From Vicinamibacterales bacterium (GTDB lineage: Bacteria > Acidobacteriota > Vicinamibacteria > Vicinamibacterales > Fen-181): a stretch of DNA of 64,000 nt. The position numbers and the translations under genes were made by a program. Below the pieces are notes generated by a model. It was not told the DNA's origin. It worked only from the letters and a program-made list of their open reading frames with translations, and did not search any database. The DNA is taken from NCBI GenBank assembly GCA_036504215.1, contig DASXVO010000059.1, positions 124,001 through 188,000 on the forward strand. Reading direction: 5' to 3'. Shown piece after piece: positions 3,235-8,636 of this stretch (the first letter of the stretch is position 1; every line of letters starts with the position of its first letter).

Positions 3235-3651
3235 CAGCAGGTGCTGAGGGTGCTGAAGGTGCCGGAGGTGCTACAGGTGCGGTGCTGAGGGTGCTGAAGG
3301 TGCTGGAGGTGCTACAGGTGCGGTGCTGCAGGTGCCAGGGGTGCTGAAGGTGCGGCACCTGCTGCACGGCACCTCCAGCACCATCAGCACCTGTGGCACG
3401 TATGGCACCGCACCGTCAGCACCATCAGCACCCCCGGCACCCCTGGCACCTTCCCCCCTGCCGCCTCTTCCCCCCCCCAGCCCCCGCCCTGTCGAGGGGG
3501 TCGCCCAATCATCGGACCTTCAAGAGGTCGTCGGCGGTCACGACCTTCGCGTAGGTGCCCTTCAGTGCGGCCAGCGTGGCCGCGTGGACGTGAGCAGCCG
3601 GCACCGTCAACCCGCCGTACTCGAGCGGACGCGTCGCGCACGCGTCGGCCA
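3235..3651. repeat. 417-bp duplicate (copy A) of the 8211-8636 segment
   Basis: This block is almost identical to 8211-8636, differing mainly by lacking one 9-base unit. It starts with a run of GGTGCTGAA-like 9-mers (about 3240-3360) and continues with their complement (GCACC-rich, about 3357-3450), forming a long imperfect inverted repeat. It ends with a piece of the isochorismatase coding sequence. Both edges are sharp: at 3652 the sequence leaves the copy abruptly. Confidence 0.9.
3509..3651 (-). pseudogene. 3' end of the isochorismatase gene, duplicated fragment
   Basis: These 143 bases match the last 47 or so codons of the gene at 8494-9147, including its stop. The catalytic Asp, Lys and Cys all lie in the missing part, so the fragment cannot be functional. 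It was carried here with the repeat block. Confidence 0.9.
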
Positions 3652-4020
3652 TTCGTACGCCGTTTCATCGTCGTCGCGGTTGCGCTCGGCGCGTGTATGG
3701 CCGGCGGCTTCTTCCTCTGGTCGTCGTGGCTGAGCCCGAAGGCGAATTTGCGGATCGACTACTCGCGCGTGGCTGCCGAGCGTGCGAAGGAACTGGGCAG
3801 CGGGCAGTCGGTCGCCGGTGCGGCGCCGGTCTCGGACGCCGTCCAGAAAGAGACGCAGGTCCTGACCGACCGCCTCCGCGGTCACCCGGGCATCGAAGGC
3901 CTCCGCCTGCTCGTCGAGTCTTACCACCCGCCCTCCGGGACGTCGCCCGCCGAGGTTGCCGCCAACAGGGAGCTGGTGACATCGCTGGCCGACGGGGTCT
4001 TCTCTCACCTGATCGCCGCC
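3652..4020 (+). pseudogene. orphan N-terminal piece of a membrane-anchored protein
   Basis: An open frame reads FVRRFIVVAVALGACMAGG and continues into a soluble stretch rich in charged residues (near AAERAKELGSGQ and ANRELVTSLADGVF). It looks like the cytoplasmic start, single membrane helix and first 90 residues of an anchored protein. No family is recognised. The frame begins inside the isochorismatase fragment on its left and runs into the NagX fragment on its right, in the wrong frame for NagX. It is therefore a transplanted gene start rather than a complete gene. Confidence 0.5.
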
Positions 4021-4441
4021 CGACCCAGAAGCTCTGGACGCTGGCGGGGTTGGGACTGCTGGGCATCGCGGCTGGATACGCACTCGACCCCGTCACGCCG
4101 GTCATCAAACGGATCGCGACGACCTCGTTTGTCGTCCTGAGCGGCGGTTGGTGCCTCTTCGCCCTGGCATTCTCTTACTGGCTCGTCGACGTTTGGCGCG
4201 TTCGACGCTGGGCGGTCTTCTTCACCATCGTCGGGATGAACCCGTTGTTCATCGTTCATCTACCTGTTCACCGAGAGCTACGGCACGGCATGGCTGGCCT
4301 CCCTCGCGAAGCCGTTCACGATGGCCGGCAGCCCATGGATTGGAGAACTGCCCGCCGAGATCCTCACGAGCCTCGTCGCGTGGGCGCCGCGGTGGGGGAT
4401 GTGCTATTGGCTGTACTGGCGGAAGATCGTCATCAGGATCT
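4021..4441 (+). pseudogene. damaged second copy of the NagX-like gene 3' end
   Basis: These bases align with 1366-1778 at roughly 94 percent identity by eye, and the similarity continues past the stop to about 4520. The reading frame, including ALDPVTPVIKRI and FTIVGMNPLFI, is broken by a 7-base direct duplication (TTCATCG repeated) near 4250. The copy lacks the N-terminal two thirds. Confidence 0.9.
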
Positions 4442-4507
4442 GAACCCGATCGAGGGCCGGCCGCCGTCGGCCCGTTCGATTCCGCACGCAATCCTGCTCG
4501 GTCCGAC

Positions 4508-4984
4508 GGATGCAGTCAGCAGGTGCTGAAGGTGAGATGCTGAAGGTGCATGGTCAGTGCCCGCAGTTCGCCTGATTCAGAACATCACTTTCACCCGATC
4601 GCCGCGTAGGGGATCATCGCGCACGGGCAGGTCCCACGATTCTTGGCTCCGCCTTCCAAGAAGCGGTACCCCGCATTCACCGAAGAGGAACAGACGTCTC
4701 CCCTCCAATGGCGCGAGCGACCGCCATCCGCAATTGGCGTTTAGCGGAGTACGGCGCGCTGCAGGTCGTCGCGCGTCAGCGACTTCGGTGGGCGCGGGCG
4801 CGTGATTGGACGAGAGGGAAGTGGGCTCGTGGTCACGTCTTGCGCGCGTTCGACGCCGCGCGTTGGGGGGCCGCCCTGACGATGCTATGGAGATCCACGC
4901 GCACCTCAGCCACCGGCTCAGGCTCGCTCGAGACCGAGAGCGTGACCTTCGGCTGGCCGGGCTTGTCCGGGGGCGGGAAGAGGA
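4508..4984. other. intergenic stretch with short repeat remnants
   Basis: Bases 4515-4550 contain a short run of the same GGTGCTGAAGGTG units seen at 3240 and 8216. Bases 4708-4814 hold one copy of a dispersed repeat listed separately. No credible gene is seen in the rest. Confidence 0.6.
4708..4814. repeat. dispersed repeat, copy 1 (about 105 bp)
   Basis: It shares GCGCGAGCGACC, CTGCAGGTCGTCGC and GGTGGGCGCGGGCGCG with 5988-6120 and, in part, with 7897-7956. This copy lacks the promoter-like end present in the other two. Confidence 0.75.
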
Positions 4985-5443
4985 TCAGTCTGGGCATTTC
5001 ACGGCCTTCGCCAGCAACTGTTCGGTGTTGGCCTTGGCCCACTTCTCGATCTGTTTAACAACCTTGCCGGCTGCCGCGGCGTAGCCGGTGAAGATGCCCG
5101 AGGACCCGCCGTCGCCGGAGAACTCGGTCGAGTACTCGCCGACCGTGAGACGGACGGTCAACACGGACTTGTTCTGCCGTCCCCAGACGTTCACCTCTCG
5201 GTTCGTCTCTCTCCCCAGTACATCCAGCACAATCACGGCGTCCGCCTCTGATTCAGCCAGGAACAGCACCTTTGAGTTTTCGATTTTGCTCTCCATGTCC
5301 CTGATCGAATCTGCCCGATCCTTGCTCGGGTCCGTGAATCCGGCCGTCGCCGCTGGGCTCTTTACGAACACGGCGAACCGAACCGGAGCCTGGGCACCGG
5401 CACCGAGTGAGGACAACGCGAGTGCGAGAATCAGTGCGTGCAT
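4985..5443 (-). CDS. small secreted protein, paralogue 1 of a four-member array
   Basis: The 152-residue protein begins MHALILALALSSLGAGAQA, a clear signal peptide. The ATG at 5443 follows AAGGAGAA on the minus strand, which is why the longer upstream frame was not used. The mature part shares with its three neighbours a DRADSIRDME motif, a hydrophobic strand ending VLDVLGRETN, a short strand before a Gly-rich turn, and a C-terminal amphipathic helix (AAGKVVKQIEKWAKAN). No known domain is recognised. Its start overlaps the end of the next paralogue by 13 bases, so the two are translated from one message. Confidence 0.8.
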   Translation of the reverse strand: MHALILALALSSLGAGAQAPVRFAVFVKSPAATAGFTDPSKDRADSIRDMESKIENSKVLFLAESEADAVIVLDVLGRETNREVNVWGRQNKSVLTVRLTVGEYSTEFSGDGGSSGIFTGYAAAAGKVVKQIEKWAKANTEQLLAKAVKCPD

Positions 5444-5895
5444 GGCGAGTATTTCTCCTTCATCTTCTTTAGCGGTCGGCGCGCCACGATTTCCGCCTTG
5501 TGCGACTTCGCCCATCTGCGGATTTGACCCGCCGCATCTTGGGCCGCCGCAAGCCAGCGTTCTTCCAGGCCATCGACGATCATCACATCGCCACCCGACG
5601 TGACTCGGCAATGGACTACCATCCGGTCTGCGTTGCGCGGGTCAATCTCGCGGCCGAGAATTTCGACCATGATCTCGGCCTCGCCCCGATCGTTGACGAC
5701 GTCGAACTCAAACCATCGGTTGATCTCCCAGATCATGTCTTTCACGGAGTCCCGCCTATCGCGGTCATCTGGCGTTGGAAAGGCCGGGCGCGCCGGAGGG
5801 GTGGTGAAGACGTAGACGCGAATGGGGGATTCAGAGGCGACGATCGCGCTGCTGGCCGCAATGAACAGGCAGGCAAAGAGAAGGGCGTATTTCAT
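5431..5895 (-). CDS. small secreted protein, paralogue 2
   Basis: The 154-residue protein starts MKYALLFACLFIAASSAIVA (signal peptide). The family pattern follows: DRRDSVKDMIWEI, VEILGREIDPRN, a strand VVHCRVTSGG, and the helix AAQDAAGQIRRWAKSHKAEI. It precedes and overlaps paralogue 1. A copy of the dispersed repeat with a TTGACG element lies just upstream and may supply the promoter. Function is unknown. The likely exported, compact alpha/beta build is inferred from the sequence alone. Confidence 0.8.
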   Translation of the reverse strand: MKYALLFACLFIAASSAIVASESPIRVYVFTTPPARPAFPTPDDRDRRDSVKDMIWEINRWFEFDVVNDRGEAEIMVEILGREIDPRNADRMVVHCRVTSGGDVMIVDGLEERWLAAAQDAAGQIRRWAKSHKAEIVARRPLKKMKEKYSPCTH

Positions 5896-5978
5896 GGTGG
5901 TCTCAACGTAGGCGCGCGGGCGTTCCCGCGCCACCACTCAACGACGCGATCCCCCAAGACTGACCGGCTGACCGACTA

Positions 5979-6007
5979 CTAGCCTTCGTGGTCCGAATCA
6001 CCGTCAA
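5979..6007 (-). promoter_or_regulatory. weak promoter candidate before paralogue 2
   Basis: TTGACG (6007-6002, minus strand) sits in the dispersed repeat at the same place as TTGACA upstream of the 7129-7815 gene. The -10 region (around GGCTAGTAG) is poor. The conserved position in two repeat copies is the main support. Confidence 0.3.
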
Positions 6008-6120
6008 GCCAAGGGCGCGAGCGACCTCGATCCGCGCTTGGTGTTTAGCGGAGTCCGGCGCGCTGCAGATCGTCGCACGTCAGCGGCTCCGGTGGGCGCG
6101 GGCGCGCGGATGGACGAAAG
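5988..6120. repeat. dispersed repeat, copy 2 (about 130 bp)
   Basis: This is the longest copy. It spans the conserved GTCAAGCCA element (the -35 side on the minus strand) and the GCGCGAGCGACC and GGTGGGCGCGGGCGCG blocks shared with 4708-4814. It lies between two paralogues. Confidence 0.75.
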
Positions 6121-6133
6121 AGGAGCAGGGACT

Positions 6134-6580
6134 TCACTCGCCGTCTCCCAAGATGAGGTGCCGGTTAAACCGCGCCCATGCGTGGATCTGTTTGGCCGCA
6201 TCCTCCGCCGCGCCGCGCCAACCATCCTCAGCCCCGTCGACGGTCCACGACTTGCCACGCGCCGAGATCTTGAGATGCACCAGGCACCAGCCCTCGCGCC
6301 GGGGGTCGAGTTCGCGACCCAGCACCTCAACGAAGACGTGGGCGTTCTCACGCCGGCCCGCCGGCTCGAACTTGACGTCCATGACGGTACGGCAGATCGC
6401 CATCCCGACATCCTGCACCGAGTCGGCCCGTGCCTTCAGGTCTGGCGGGGCAAATTCGCCCGGCCTGGGCCGAGCGGTGAAGATGAAGACCCTCACCGTC
6501 GGCTTCGGCTTGGGTGTTGGTGCTGCCAAAGTGGCGACCGCCAGGGTGTGGAGGGCGAGTGCAAGGATCAGTGCGTGCAT
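6134..6580 (-). CDS. small secreted protein, paralogue 3
   Basis: The 148-residue protein begins MHALILALALHTLAVATLA, nearly the same signal peptide as paralogue 1. It carries KARADSVQDVGMAI, VEVLGRELDPRREG, VHLKISARG and a C-terminal helix with AAEDAAKQIHAWARFN. It follows paralogue 4 after only four bases, so these two are probably cotranslated. The shared start MHALILALAL in copies 1 and 3 points to recent duplication. No function can be assigned. Confidence 0.8.
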   Translation of the reverse strand: MHALILALALHTLAVATLAAPTPKPKPTVRVFIFTARPRPGEFAPPDLKARADSVQDVGMAICRTVMDVKFEPAGRRENAHVFVEVLGRELDPRREGWCLVHLKISARGKSWTVDGAEDGWRGAAEDAAKQIHAWARFNRHLILGDGE

Positions 6581-6584
6581 GGCG

Positions 6585-7037
6585 CTACGTCTTTCGCTGC
6601 CCGACGAGTTGGTCGCAGTTGGCTGCGGCCCACTCGCGAATTTGCCGACACGCAGTCTTCGCAACACCGATCCAATCGTCCTCGTCTTGCGCGTCGATCG
6701 TCGTAACGTGCTCGCCCGCCACCAGGCGCAGGTGAATGATGTGCCAATCCGAATCTTGGGCGCCGCGTTGTCGCCCCGTGATATCGATCGCTACGTCCGC
6801 GCGCTCGAGTTCATTGACGAACCGAGACCCGCTTGCTTTGGCGGTGATGTGGTTCACGACGTCGATCGCGGAGCTATCACGGTCCTTGTAGTTCTGAGTC
6901 ACGAAGCCGGTCTGCGGGTCGCGTTCTTGCGTCCAGACGTAGACGAGGACTTCTTTGCGCGAAGCGCTTGCGTCCACCGCCGGCGAAGCGGGGAGAGTCG
7001 TCAAGGCGCAGACGAGATACGGCGCGAAGGGGACCGT
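6585..7037 (-). CDS. small secreted protein, paralogue 4, with an apparent ACG start
   Basis: The frame shares the family features DRDSSAIDVVNHIT, IDITGRQRGAQ, IIHLRLVAGEH and a terminal helix with KTACRQIREWAAAN. No ATG, GTG or well-placed TTG begins it. The TTG at 7004 would cut off the signal peptide. Six bases after a perfect AGGAGG (7049-7044) lies ACG at 7037-7035. Reading from there gives (T/M)VPFAPYLVCALTTLPASPAVDA, a convincing short signal peptide. Either ACG is used as a rare start or the ATG has mutated and the gene is dying. The product would be 150 residues. Confidence 0.65.
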   Translation of the reverse strand, partial: TVPFAPYLVCALTTLPASPAVDASASRKEVLVYVWTQERDPQTGFVTQNYKDRDSSAIDVVNHITAKASGSRFVNELERADVAIDITGRQRGAQDSDWHIIHLRLVAGEHVTTIDAQDEDDWIGVAKTACRQIREWAAANCDQLVGQRKT

Positions 7038-7128: not shown

Positions 7129-7815
7129 TTACCGTAACAGGCCCATCACGCCAGCGGAAAGGGACCAAGGGACATTGGAGCCGTCTTCTGCGATGAGGAC
7201 AATCATGGCTGACCGGCTCACGTCGATCTTGGTGACATCGAAACAGACCTGCCCGAACCGTCGCTGAAACTTCACTCCAAATCCGTTCGTCAACTCGTTC
7301 ACCCGCAGCTCGTCTGACAATGAGTCGAGGGACTTGTCGCCTTGGCTCAGCACGATCTTGAGGATCGACGGCGCAGTGAGCGTCTTGGGTTTCACCGACA
7401 CGACAATGCCGTTTTGGGCTGGAACACCGGAAAGGTCCGCGGCTTTCATGAGTGCATCGGTCAACTGAGTGATGTACCAGCCCGTGGGGCTATACAGTTC
7501 CACCGCGAAGAACTCAGCAACCCGTGGCTCCGTCCAGACGATCGGGTCCGGGCGGGGATAGCGCAGCTCAAGCATGATTCGGAATAGTCGAGCGGCCTGA
7601 AATGGCAACCCGCCCGAGGCGGCGCGGGCCTGGCCGGCGATGTCTAGAATCCCGCGTGCGACCGTCGGCGTCAGGAAGACGAGCGAGGCCGGTTCCGTAA
7701 CCTGCGGCTGCATGGCCTGATGATTGTGTAGCGGTTGAGCACCAGCAGCCGAGCCACTTATCATCGCTGCGCCGGTCAGAAATAACGTAGCCGCGAATGA
7801 CGCCCTTCTATTCAC
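7129..7815 (-). CDS. secreted protein of unknown function
   Basis: The 228-residue protein has a signal peptide ending near GSAAGAQ (residue 26) and no membrane segment after it. A GTG start at 7815 is set by AGGAGAAA just upstream on the minus strand. The mature protein has VFLTPTVARGILDIAGQAR and a C-terminal part rich in beta structure (VSVKPKTLTAPSILKIVL, VCFDVTKIDVSRSAMIVLI). It is not recognisably one of the four paralogues downstream. It probably heads the same leftward cluster. No family is recognised. Confidence 0.75.
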   Translation of the reverse strand: MNRRASFAATLFLTGAAMISGSAAGAQPLHNHQAMQPQVTEPASLVFLTPTVARGILDIAGQARAASGGLPFQAARLFRIMLELRYPRPDPIVWTEPRVAEFFAVELYSPTGWYITQLTDALMKAADLSGVPAQNGIVVSVKPKTLTAPSILKIVLSQGDKSLDSLSDELRVNELTNGFGVKFQRRFGQVCFDVTKIDVSRSAMIVLIAEDGSNVPWSLSAGVMGLLR

Positions 7816-7885
7816 AGGGTTTCTCCTGTTTGACGTCCATCCGAACGCCGCTGCTCAACGGCACGATTCTCAAGACTGGCTGACC

Positions 7886-7915
7886 ATTAAGGTTCATGGT
7901 CCGAGTGATTGTCAA
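7886..7915 (-). promoter_or_regulatory. promoter for the 7129-7815 gene
   Basis: On the minus strand TTGACA (7915-7910) is followed after 18 bases by CTTAAT (7891-7886), leaving a leader of about 70 bases. The -35 lies in the third, shortest copy of the dispersed repeat (7897-7956). Confidence 0.5.
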
Positions 7916-7956
7916 GCCAGGGGCGCGAGCGACCGCGATCCGCTGTTGGCGTCTAT
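7897..7956. repeat. dispersed repeat, copy 3 (about 60 bp)
   Basis: It matches the promoter-side part of copy 2 (GTCAAGCCAggGGCGCGAGCG) and then diverges. Bases 7957-8210 contain no gene that can be supported. Confidence 0.7.
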
Positions 7957-8210
7957 TGGTCTCCCTCCGTGGTCGTCTCCCTTCGTCCATGCCGGGTGTG
8001 CCACCGATGCAGCCACGCTACCGCCTCCCGTGACGCTTCTTCAAGCCCGTCCTCCGCAATCAGGTTGCGCGGCGACAATTGAATCTGGCGCCACAAGTAG
8101 TTGACGCCGCTAGCAAGAAACAGAAGCCTGCGGGAGGCAGCGCAGCGATCGCGGGCGATATGGACAAGACGAGGGTGATCGCGAGGACACGCGCGGGGGG
8201 GACGCAACAA

Positions 8211-8636
8211 CAGCAGGTGCTGAGGGTGCTGAAGGTGCCGGAGGTGCTACAGGTGCGGTGCTGAGGGTGCTGAAGGTGCTGAAGGTGCTGGAGGTGCTAC
8301 AGGTGCGGTGCTGCAGGTGCCAGGGGCGCTGAAGGTGCGGCGCCTGCTGCACGGCACCTCCAGCACCATCAGCACCTGTGGCACGTATGGCACGGCACCG
8401 TCAGCACCATCAGCACCCCCGGCACCCCTGGCACCTTCCCCCCTGCCGCCTCTTCCCCCCCCCAGCCCCCGCCCTGTCGAGGGGGTCGCCCAATCATCGG
8501 ACCTTCAAGAGGTCGTCGGCGGTCACGATCTTCGCGTAGGTGCCCTTCAGTGCGGCCAGCGTGGCCGCGTGGACGTGAGCAGCCGGCACCGTCAACCCGC
8601 CGTACTCGAGCGGACGCGTCGCGCACGCGTCGGCCA
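8211..8636. repeat. 426-bp duplicate (copy B) with a 9-mer tandem and inverted repeat
   Basis: Units such as GGTGCTGAA and GGTGCTACA recur from 8216 to about 8335. Their complements (GCACCTCCA, GCACCATCA) recur from about 8347 to 8430, so the two halves can fold on each other. It has one more 9-base unit than copy A at 3235-3651. Bases 8494-8636 are the genuine 3' end of the isochorismatase gene, so this is probably the parent copy. Confidence 0.9.

Follow-up and report, generated by a model that had tools for sequence, protein, structure and literature searches.

A new sequence family of small exported proteins in Acidobacteriota, found in tandem arrays and predicted to share the fold of CsgG, TolB-N and LptE

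Organisation of the locus

The window analysed here is a stretch of 64,000 nucleotides from the genome of a soil acidobacterium, a member of the Vicinamibacterales (assembly GCA_036504215.1, contig DASXVO010000059.1, positions 124,001 to 188,000). Between positions 4985 and 7037 of this window, on the minus strand, lie four adjacent paralogous genes, which the initial annotation had recognised correctly in essence. These are W1 (4985-5443, 152 residues), W2 (5431-5895, 154 residues, with a reading frame that stays open to a GTG at 5937), W3 (6134-6580, 148 residues) and W4 (6585-7037, about 150 residues from an ACG codon). The first three were defined by reading frame and alignment, and W4 by its sequence and a profile match along its length. 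Transcription runs in the order W4, W3, W2, W1. The genes had been described as overlapping or nearly touching within a single leftward operon; this holds for W4 and W3, which are separated by 4 nt, and for W2 and W1, which overlap by 13 nt, but not for W3 and W2, which stand 238 nt apart across a repeat. Given this gap, the natural reading of the array is as two bicistrons, W4-W3 and W2-W1, rather than one operon of touching genes.

All four frames have a coding composition (GC3 0.74-0.80 against GC2 0.45-0.50), with GC3 values below those of the neighbouring genes (0.85-0.88). At the start of W4, a strong Shine-Dalgarno sequence AGGAGG is followed at 6-nt spacing by ACG, in the place where an ATG, GTG or TTG would be expected. 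The protein reaches 150 residues only with this ACG start, and 139 residues from a TTG at 7004. Either the ACG is used, or a single transition has removed an original ATG, or this codon is an assembly error.

Hydrophobic N-termini, called with a hydropathy criterion rather than a trained predictor, are present in all four proteins (in W4 only if the ACG start is used) and in 32 of the 35 members of the family alignment described below, while a lipobox was found in none of the 35, W1-W4 included. The leader MHALILALAL, which had been noted as duplicated, is indeed identical in W1 and W3, whereas W2 and W4 carry other leaders. In the DNA, the W1 copy (5418-5447) and the W3 copy (6555-6584), both on the minus strand, agree at 28 of 30 nt (93%). 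Since the two genes are near-identical over these 30 nt and diverge afterwards, the leader is best understood as a later, separate copy. Adjoining the array, a minus-strand gene at 7129-7815 encodes a 228-residue protein of exported type; it had no match in Pfam or PHROGs, and its relatives were almost absent from 193 genomes of the class, with two weak, partial matches.

Relationship of the four proteins

In pairs, the mature proteins share 29-40% identity, W2 and W3 being the closest (40%), and their pairwise alignment z-scores range from 12.9 to 33.5 when compared with 200 shuffles. Whole-genome searches recovered W1-W4 as the only significant family members in their own 5.9-Mb genome. Two motifs that had been attributed to all four proved less uniform. 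Only W1 and W2 carry DSxxDM exactly, the corresponding residues being DSVQDV in W3 and SSAIDV in W4; the ExLGRE strand appears in three paralogues as DVLGRE, EILGRE and EVLGRE, while W4 deviates with DITGRQ.

In a tree of the 35 family members the branches are long (terminal branches have a median of 0.68 changes per site, and those of W1-W4 reach 0.8-1.1), and W1-W4 are not resolved as one clade, so that a recent duplication of the protein bodies is unsupported. The idea of ongoing duplication in the initial annotation is therefore not supported: some one substitution per site separates the W1-W4 bodies from each other, and the paralogue types of another genus, described below, are stable across species. 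Recent copies are confined to the 30-nt leader of W1 and W3 and to non-coding repeats and flanks.

Repeats and locus history

A repeat, here called D, occurs in three minus-strand copies: copy a downstream of W1 (4705-4816), copy b behind W3, in the gap between W3 and W2 (5929-6120), and copy c upstream of the 7129-7815 gene (7846-7955). Copy b matches both of the others, with 87% identity over 112 nt between copy a and 6009-6120, and 74% (E 7e-13) between copy c and 5929-6047. Within its own genome the repeat is found only at the array locus. No convincing copy was detected elsewhere in the class, short matches in other genomes falling in unrelated genes. By a hand count, only one of the eight changes between copies a and b would be synonymous in an ORF, and D is thus probably non-coding; on the same count, a small coupled ORF of about 30 residues was rejected as a conserved gene. 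Integron-like cassettes, with the repeats as recombination sites, were set aside because there are only three copies, of unequal length, at one locus. The sequence around 7956-8246 (EDGLEEASREAVAWLHRW) is not claimed as a fifth, decayed paralogue, its profile score being 1.0 (E 27).

The wider surroundings contain longer duplications. The 3' end of an isochorismatase-family gene, together with a minisatellite, forms a direct repeat at 3235-3651 and, to the right of the array, 8211-8636 (97% over 426 columns), in which the isochorismatase fragment comprises 47 residues at 96% identity. A direct copy of 1355-1855, the 3' end of a membrane-protein gene at 660-1778, lies at 4013-4520 (92%). These repeats place the array inside a segmental duplication. 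On the map, their order fits the recent tandem duplication of one block, whose limits would be the ends of the 660-1778 gene and of the isochorismatase gene. Through unequal later losses the two block copies would then have come to differ in their middle parts, the left one retaining a yncE-like propeller gene and the right one the array. In both copies the minisatellite (3235-3460 and 8211-8440) is GC-rich, built on a 9-mer of the GGTGCTGAAGGTGCTGGA type, and followed by its inverted counterpart.

Distribution of the family

A profile built from W1-W4 recovers independent members in which the leader and the pattern of strands and helices recur, and the resulting family alignment (A7) holds 35 sequences. 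The family is widespread in Acidobacteriota. Of 193 genomes of the class, 33 were positive in whole-genome profile searches, as were 19 of 396 genomes sampled across the phylum, some of them outside the class. The named relatives are two 'Acidobacteria bacterium isolate gp6' MAGs; direct contig scans gave none with W1 as the query, and just two when a closer alignment was used instead. Presence within the genus itself is patchy. Two genomes lack the family (G001, G002), two carry other subtypes (G003, G004), and no comparable array was found in the congeners. Relatives were absent from viral contigs and from plasmids, and a viral or plasmid origin of the array was rejected for this reason.

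Searches of Pfam and NCBIfam with the 35 members gave no consistent match, each of the hits listed concerning one member at E 0.001 or worse and all being different. PADLOC matched none of the 35, PHROGs none of the window proteins, and a family profile search of PDB sequences returned chance matches only. With no convincing match from any of these searches, the original description of small, secreted-type paralogues outside any described sequence family stands. Conserved columns of the alignment are small, aromatic or basic: A73 and A118, joined in most cases by W128 and an Arg. The alignment contains no near-invariant catalytic residue or catalytic set, and no conserved polar pocket.

The same clustering, sought elsewhere in Acidobacteriota, was found. 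Translated loci of three genomes contain four adjacent members (G059, G064, G066), three array members were recovered from each of G061, G062 and G065, and adjacent pairs occur in G006, G163 and G037. The four-gene arrays, which belong to another genus, are independent of the present one and conserved: the four paralogue types keep their order, all in the same orientation, flanked by a ThiI gene on one side and an alkaline phosphatase gene on the other, and orthologues are 61-92% identical between species, paralogues 23-59%. Their dN/dS values of 0.13-0.37 show that these genes are under purifying selection. At other loci the members stand singly and in unrelated surroundings. Neighbourhoods differ between lineages, and no conserved neighbour that would name a partner was seen among the loci examined. 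Some relatives are fused to further domains: one to PDZ_2 (G197, L102 5852-6835; E 4e-10, above the gathering score), one to a C-terminal BamE-like tail (G458, L097 7574-8317; E 3.3e-4, a little short of the gathering score) and one to a weaker BamE-like tail (G395, L098 6878-7627). Between the two family members of G006, a 76-residue frame (L059 526-753) abuts the end of the first; it has no Pfam match.

Predicted fold

AlphaFold models of W2 and W1, each computed from a six-sequence alignment, reached pLDDT values of 85.7 and 78.8 and pTM values of 0.79 and 0.75, respectively. Both models contain, in the same order, a strand, a helix, a short strand, three long strands, a long helix and a short helix, giving a b-a-b-b-b-b-a topology. 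Among solved structures, W2 was matched by CsgG (Z 9.5, 106 residues, 3.1 A), CT253 (9.2), TolB-N (9.0), DUF330 (8.9), CC_3750 (8.5), LptE (8.3) and PelC (8.0), and W1 by CsgG (10.6), the LptE-type 3bf2 (10.4), CT253 (10.2), LptE (9.8), DUF330 (9.5), FlgT (9.3) and PelC (9.1). These matches are mostly cell-envelope proteins, with Z values of 8-10.6, a margin that is only moderate over the 7-8 regarded by the tool as typical. For W2, Z is also near 8 with HPF/RaiA and with ProRS anticodon-binding domains, and HPF/RaiA is its first-ranked Foldseek match (E 5e-4).

CsgG, TolB-N and DUF330 belong to one Pfam clan (PMC3173608). PqiC, PelC and LptE are neighbours in structure, and rings are formed by two of the three (PMC10897342). 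Comparison by hhalign with the CsgG and TolB_N members of related genomes gave probabilities of 0.1-0.2%, no better than reversed controls, and sequence homology to either was rejected accordingly. As there is no profile-profile relation, we claim a shared fold and not membership, and the match could reflect a common arrangement. From these models, the W1-W4 domain is predicted to have the fold common to CsgG, the TolB N-domain, LptE, PelC, DUF330/PqiC and FlgT. At the sequence level no described domain family accounts for all four proteins; the predicted fold is nonetheless a known one. We conclude that this is a new sequence family with a known fold.

Discussion

The combination of fold, export and fusions is best read as that of periplasmic docking or scaffold domains. 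We therefore propose that W1-W4 belong to a family of small, exported, non-lipidated single-domain proteins that would most likely serve an outer-membrane or peptidoglycan-associated complex as its docking or scaffold subunits, a reading to which we give an even chance. The purifying selection seen in relatives favours it. Against it stand the missing profile relation to CsgG and TolB-N, the moderate Z values and the scores near 8 of HPF/RaiA and ProRS domains for W2, the lipidation of most known outer-membrane proteins of this fold, the monomeric state of soluble PqiC, and the want of a conserved neighbour. The four proteins would be exported to the periplasm, a location suggested by leader and fold together, through a non-lipidated leader, and there may play a soluble docking or scaffold role resembling that of LptE, PelC, PqiC or TolB-N. 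The presence of several paralogues in a row suggests several partners or unlike subunits, so that each paralogue might have its own partner or the paralogues might be unlike subunits of one assembly. By analogy with the lipoproteins of this fold, they might bind partners, oligomerise and handle a cargo. A binding or interaction role had been put forward in the initial annotation, and it agrees both with the predicted fold and with an alignment in which no catalytic residues are conserved.

Other explanations can be weighed against the same evidence. The proteins might be ligand-binding or sensing domains, in which an anticodon-binding-like fold for small molecules or peptides would feed substrates or signals to envelope enzymes. 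Their character as small stand-alone exported domains free of a lipid anchor is compatible with this, as is the position of one genus's array between ThiI and alkaline phosphatase genes on the same strand; however, the alignment lacks a conserved polar pocket and the neighbourhood is not conserved between lineages, and we consider this role unlikely. It is improbable that the locus is a decaying remnant, a by-product of segmental duplication in which certain copies, such as W4 with its ACG and those of repeat D, no longer function. The ACG in place of the W4 start, the truncated copies of two neighbouring genes that flank the array and the want of a comparable array in congeners would all suit such decay, but none of the four frames has closed or lost its coding composition even though roughly one substitution per site has accumulated, and they must therefore have been maintained until recently.

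Quite improbable, in our view, is a role in exclusion, immunity or decoy, in the periplasm or at the surface, with tandem diversification as the response to varied attackers (phages, bacteriocins or contact-delivered toxins) that exploit outer-membrane complexes. The strong divergence of the tandem paralogues, their patchy presence within the genus, the reduced GC3 of the array and a weak structural match of W1 to the surface-exclusion lipoprotein TraT (Z 7.7) point in this direction. Yet neither PADLOC nor PHROGs gave a match, viral contigs and plasmids hold no relatives, no toxin, secretion or phage gene was recognised beside the loci examined, and the stability of the paralogue types between species of the other genus, at the dN/dS values given above, is the opposite of an arms race. 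A ribosome- or tRNA-binding function of the HPF/RaiA or ProRS anticodon-binding kind, which the top Foldseek rank of HPF/RaiA for W2 and a VIA Z of about 8 might suggest, is extremely improbable. HPF/RaiA is cytosolic and has one strand fewer, while hydrophobic export leaders are found in all four array proteins and in 32 of 35 members; the HPF/RaiA profile (PF02482) hits one of the 35 at E 0.093, which is not significant. CsgG-type Z scores are also higher, and W1 is clearer still, with CsgG at 10.6 and no HPF among the 50 matches listed.

Acidobacteriota are among the most abundant soil phyla, and their envelope biology has been little studied. A group of proteins annotated there as hypothetical now has a name, a fold and a proposed location in the periplasm that can be put to the test. 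The invisibility of the family to current profile libraries suggests that the CsgG/TolB-N/LptE fold has more sequence families than recorded, and the conserved four-gene arrays of the second lineage make redundancy versus division of labour directly testable. A bolder and decidedly unlikely extension is that Acidobacteriota possess a large, so far unrecognised family of soluble, tandem-arrayed CsgG/LptE-fold proteins. Its unlike paralogues would together build a single hetero-oligomeric ring in the periplasm, or else serve outer-membrane machines as adaptors that are interchangeable and partner-specific.

Comparison with known systems places the array proteins near several envelope components and within none of them. 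The predicted models resemble the periplasmic domain of CsgG (PF03783; 6lqh, 4uv2) in fold along almost their entire length (106-115 residues, rmsd 2.9-3.1, Z 9.5-10.6). However, none of the 35 members matches PF03783 at E<=1, the array proteins have no lipobox cysteine and about 130 mature residues against the 206 resolved in 6lqh, and a true CsgG is encoded elsewhere in the same genome. The TolB N-domain (PF04052) is likewise exported and alike in fold (Z 7.7-9.0), but the array proteins end after their single domain, lack the C-terminal beta-propeller and do not match the PF04052 profile; the genome encodes a separate TolB_N protein. LptE/RlpB agrees in fold, size and export (Z 8.3 for W2 to 9.8 for W1, and 10.4 for 3bf2), and differs in that the array proteins have no lipoprotein signal, no sequence match and no recognised LptD gene beside them. 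DUF330/PqiC and PelC are small, periplasmic single-domain proteins, as the array proteins would be from their inferred location, and have a similar fold (Z 7.7-9.5); no MCE/PqiB or Pel genes were recognised among the neighbours listed, of which the profile scan covered a minority. PqiC and PelC carry a lipid and assemble into rings of 8 or 12 members (PMC10897342, PMC12141448), whereas the array proteins have no lipobox, and soluble PqiC deprived of its lipid is monomeric (PMC10897342). Known outer-membrane proteins of the CsgG/LptE fold are mostly lipidated, and it is in their non-lipidated leaders that the array proteins stand apart from them.
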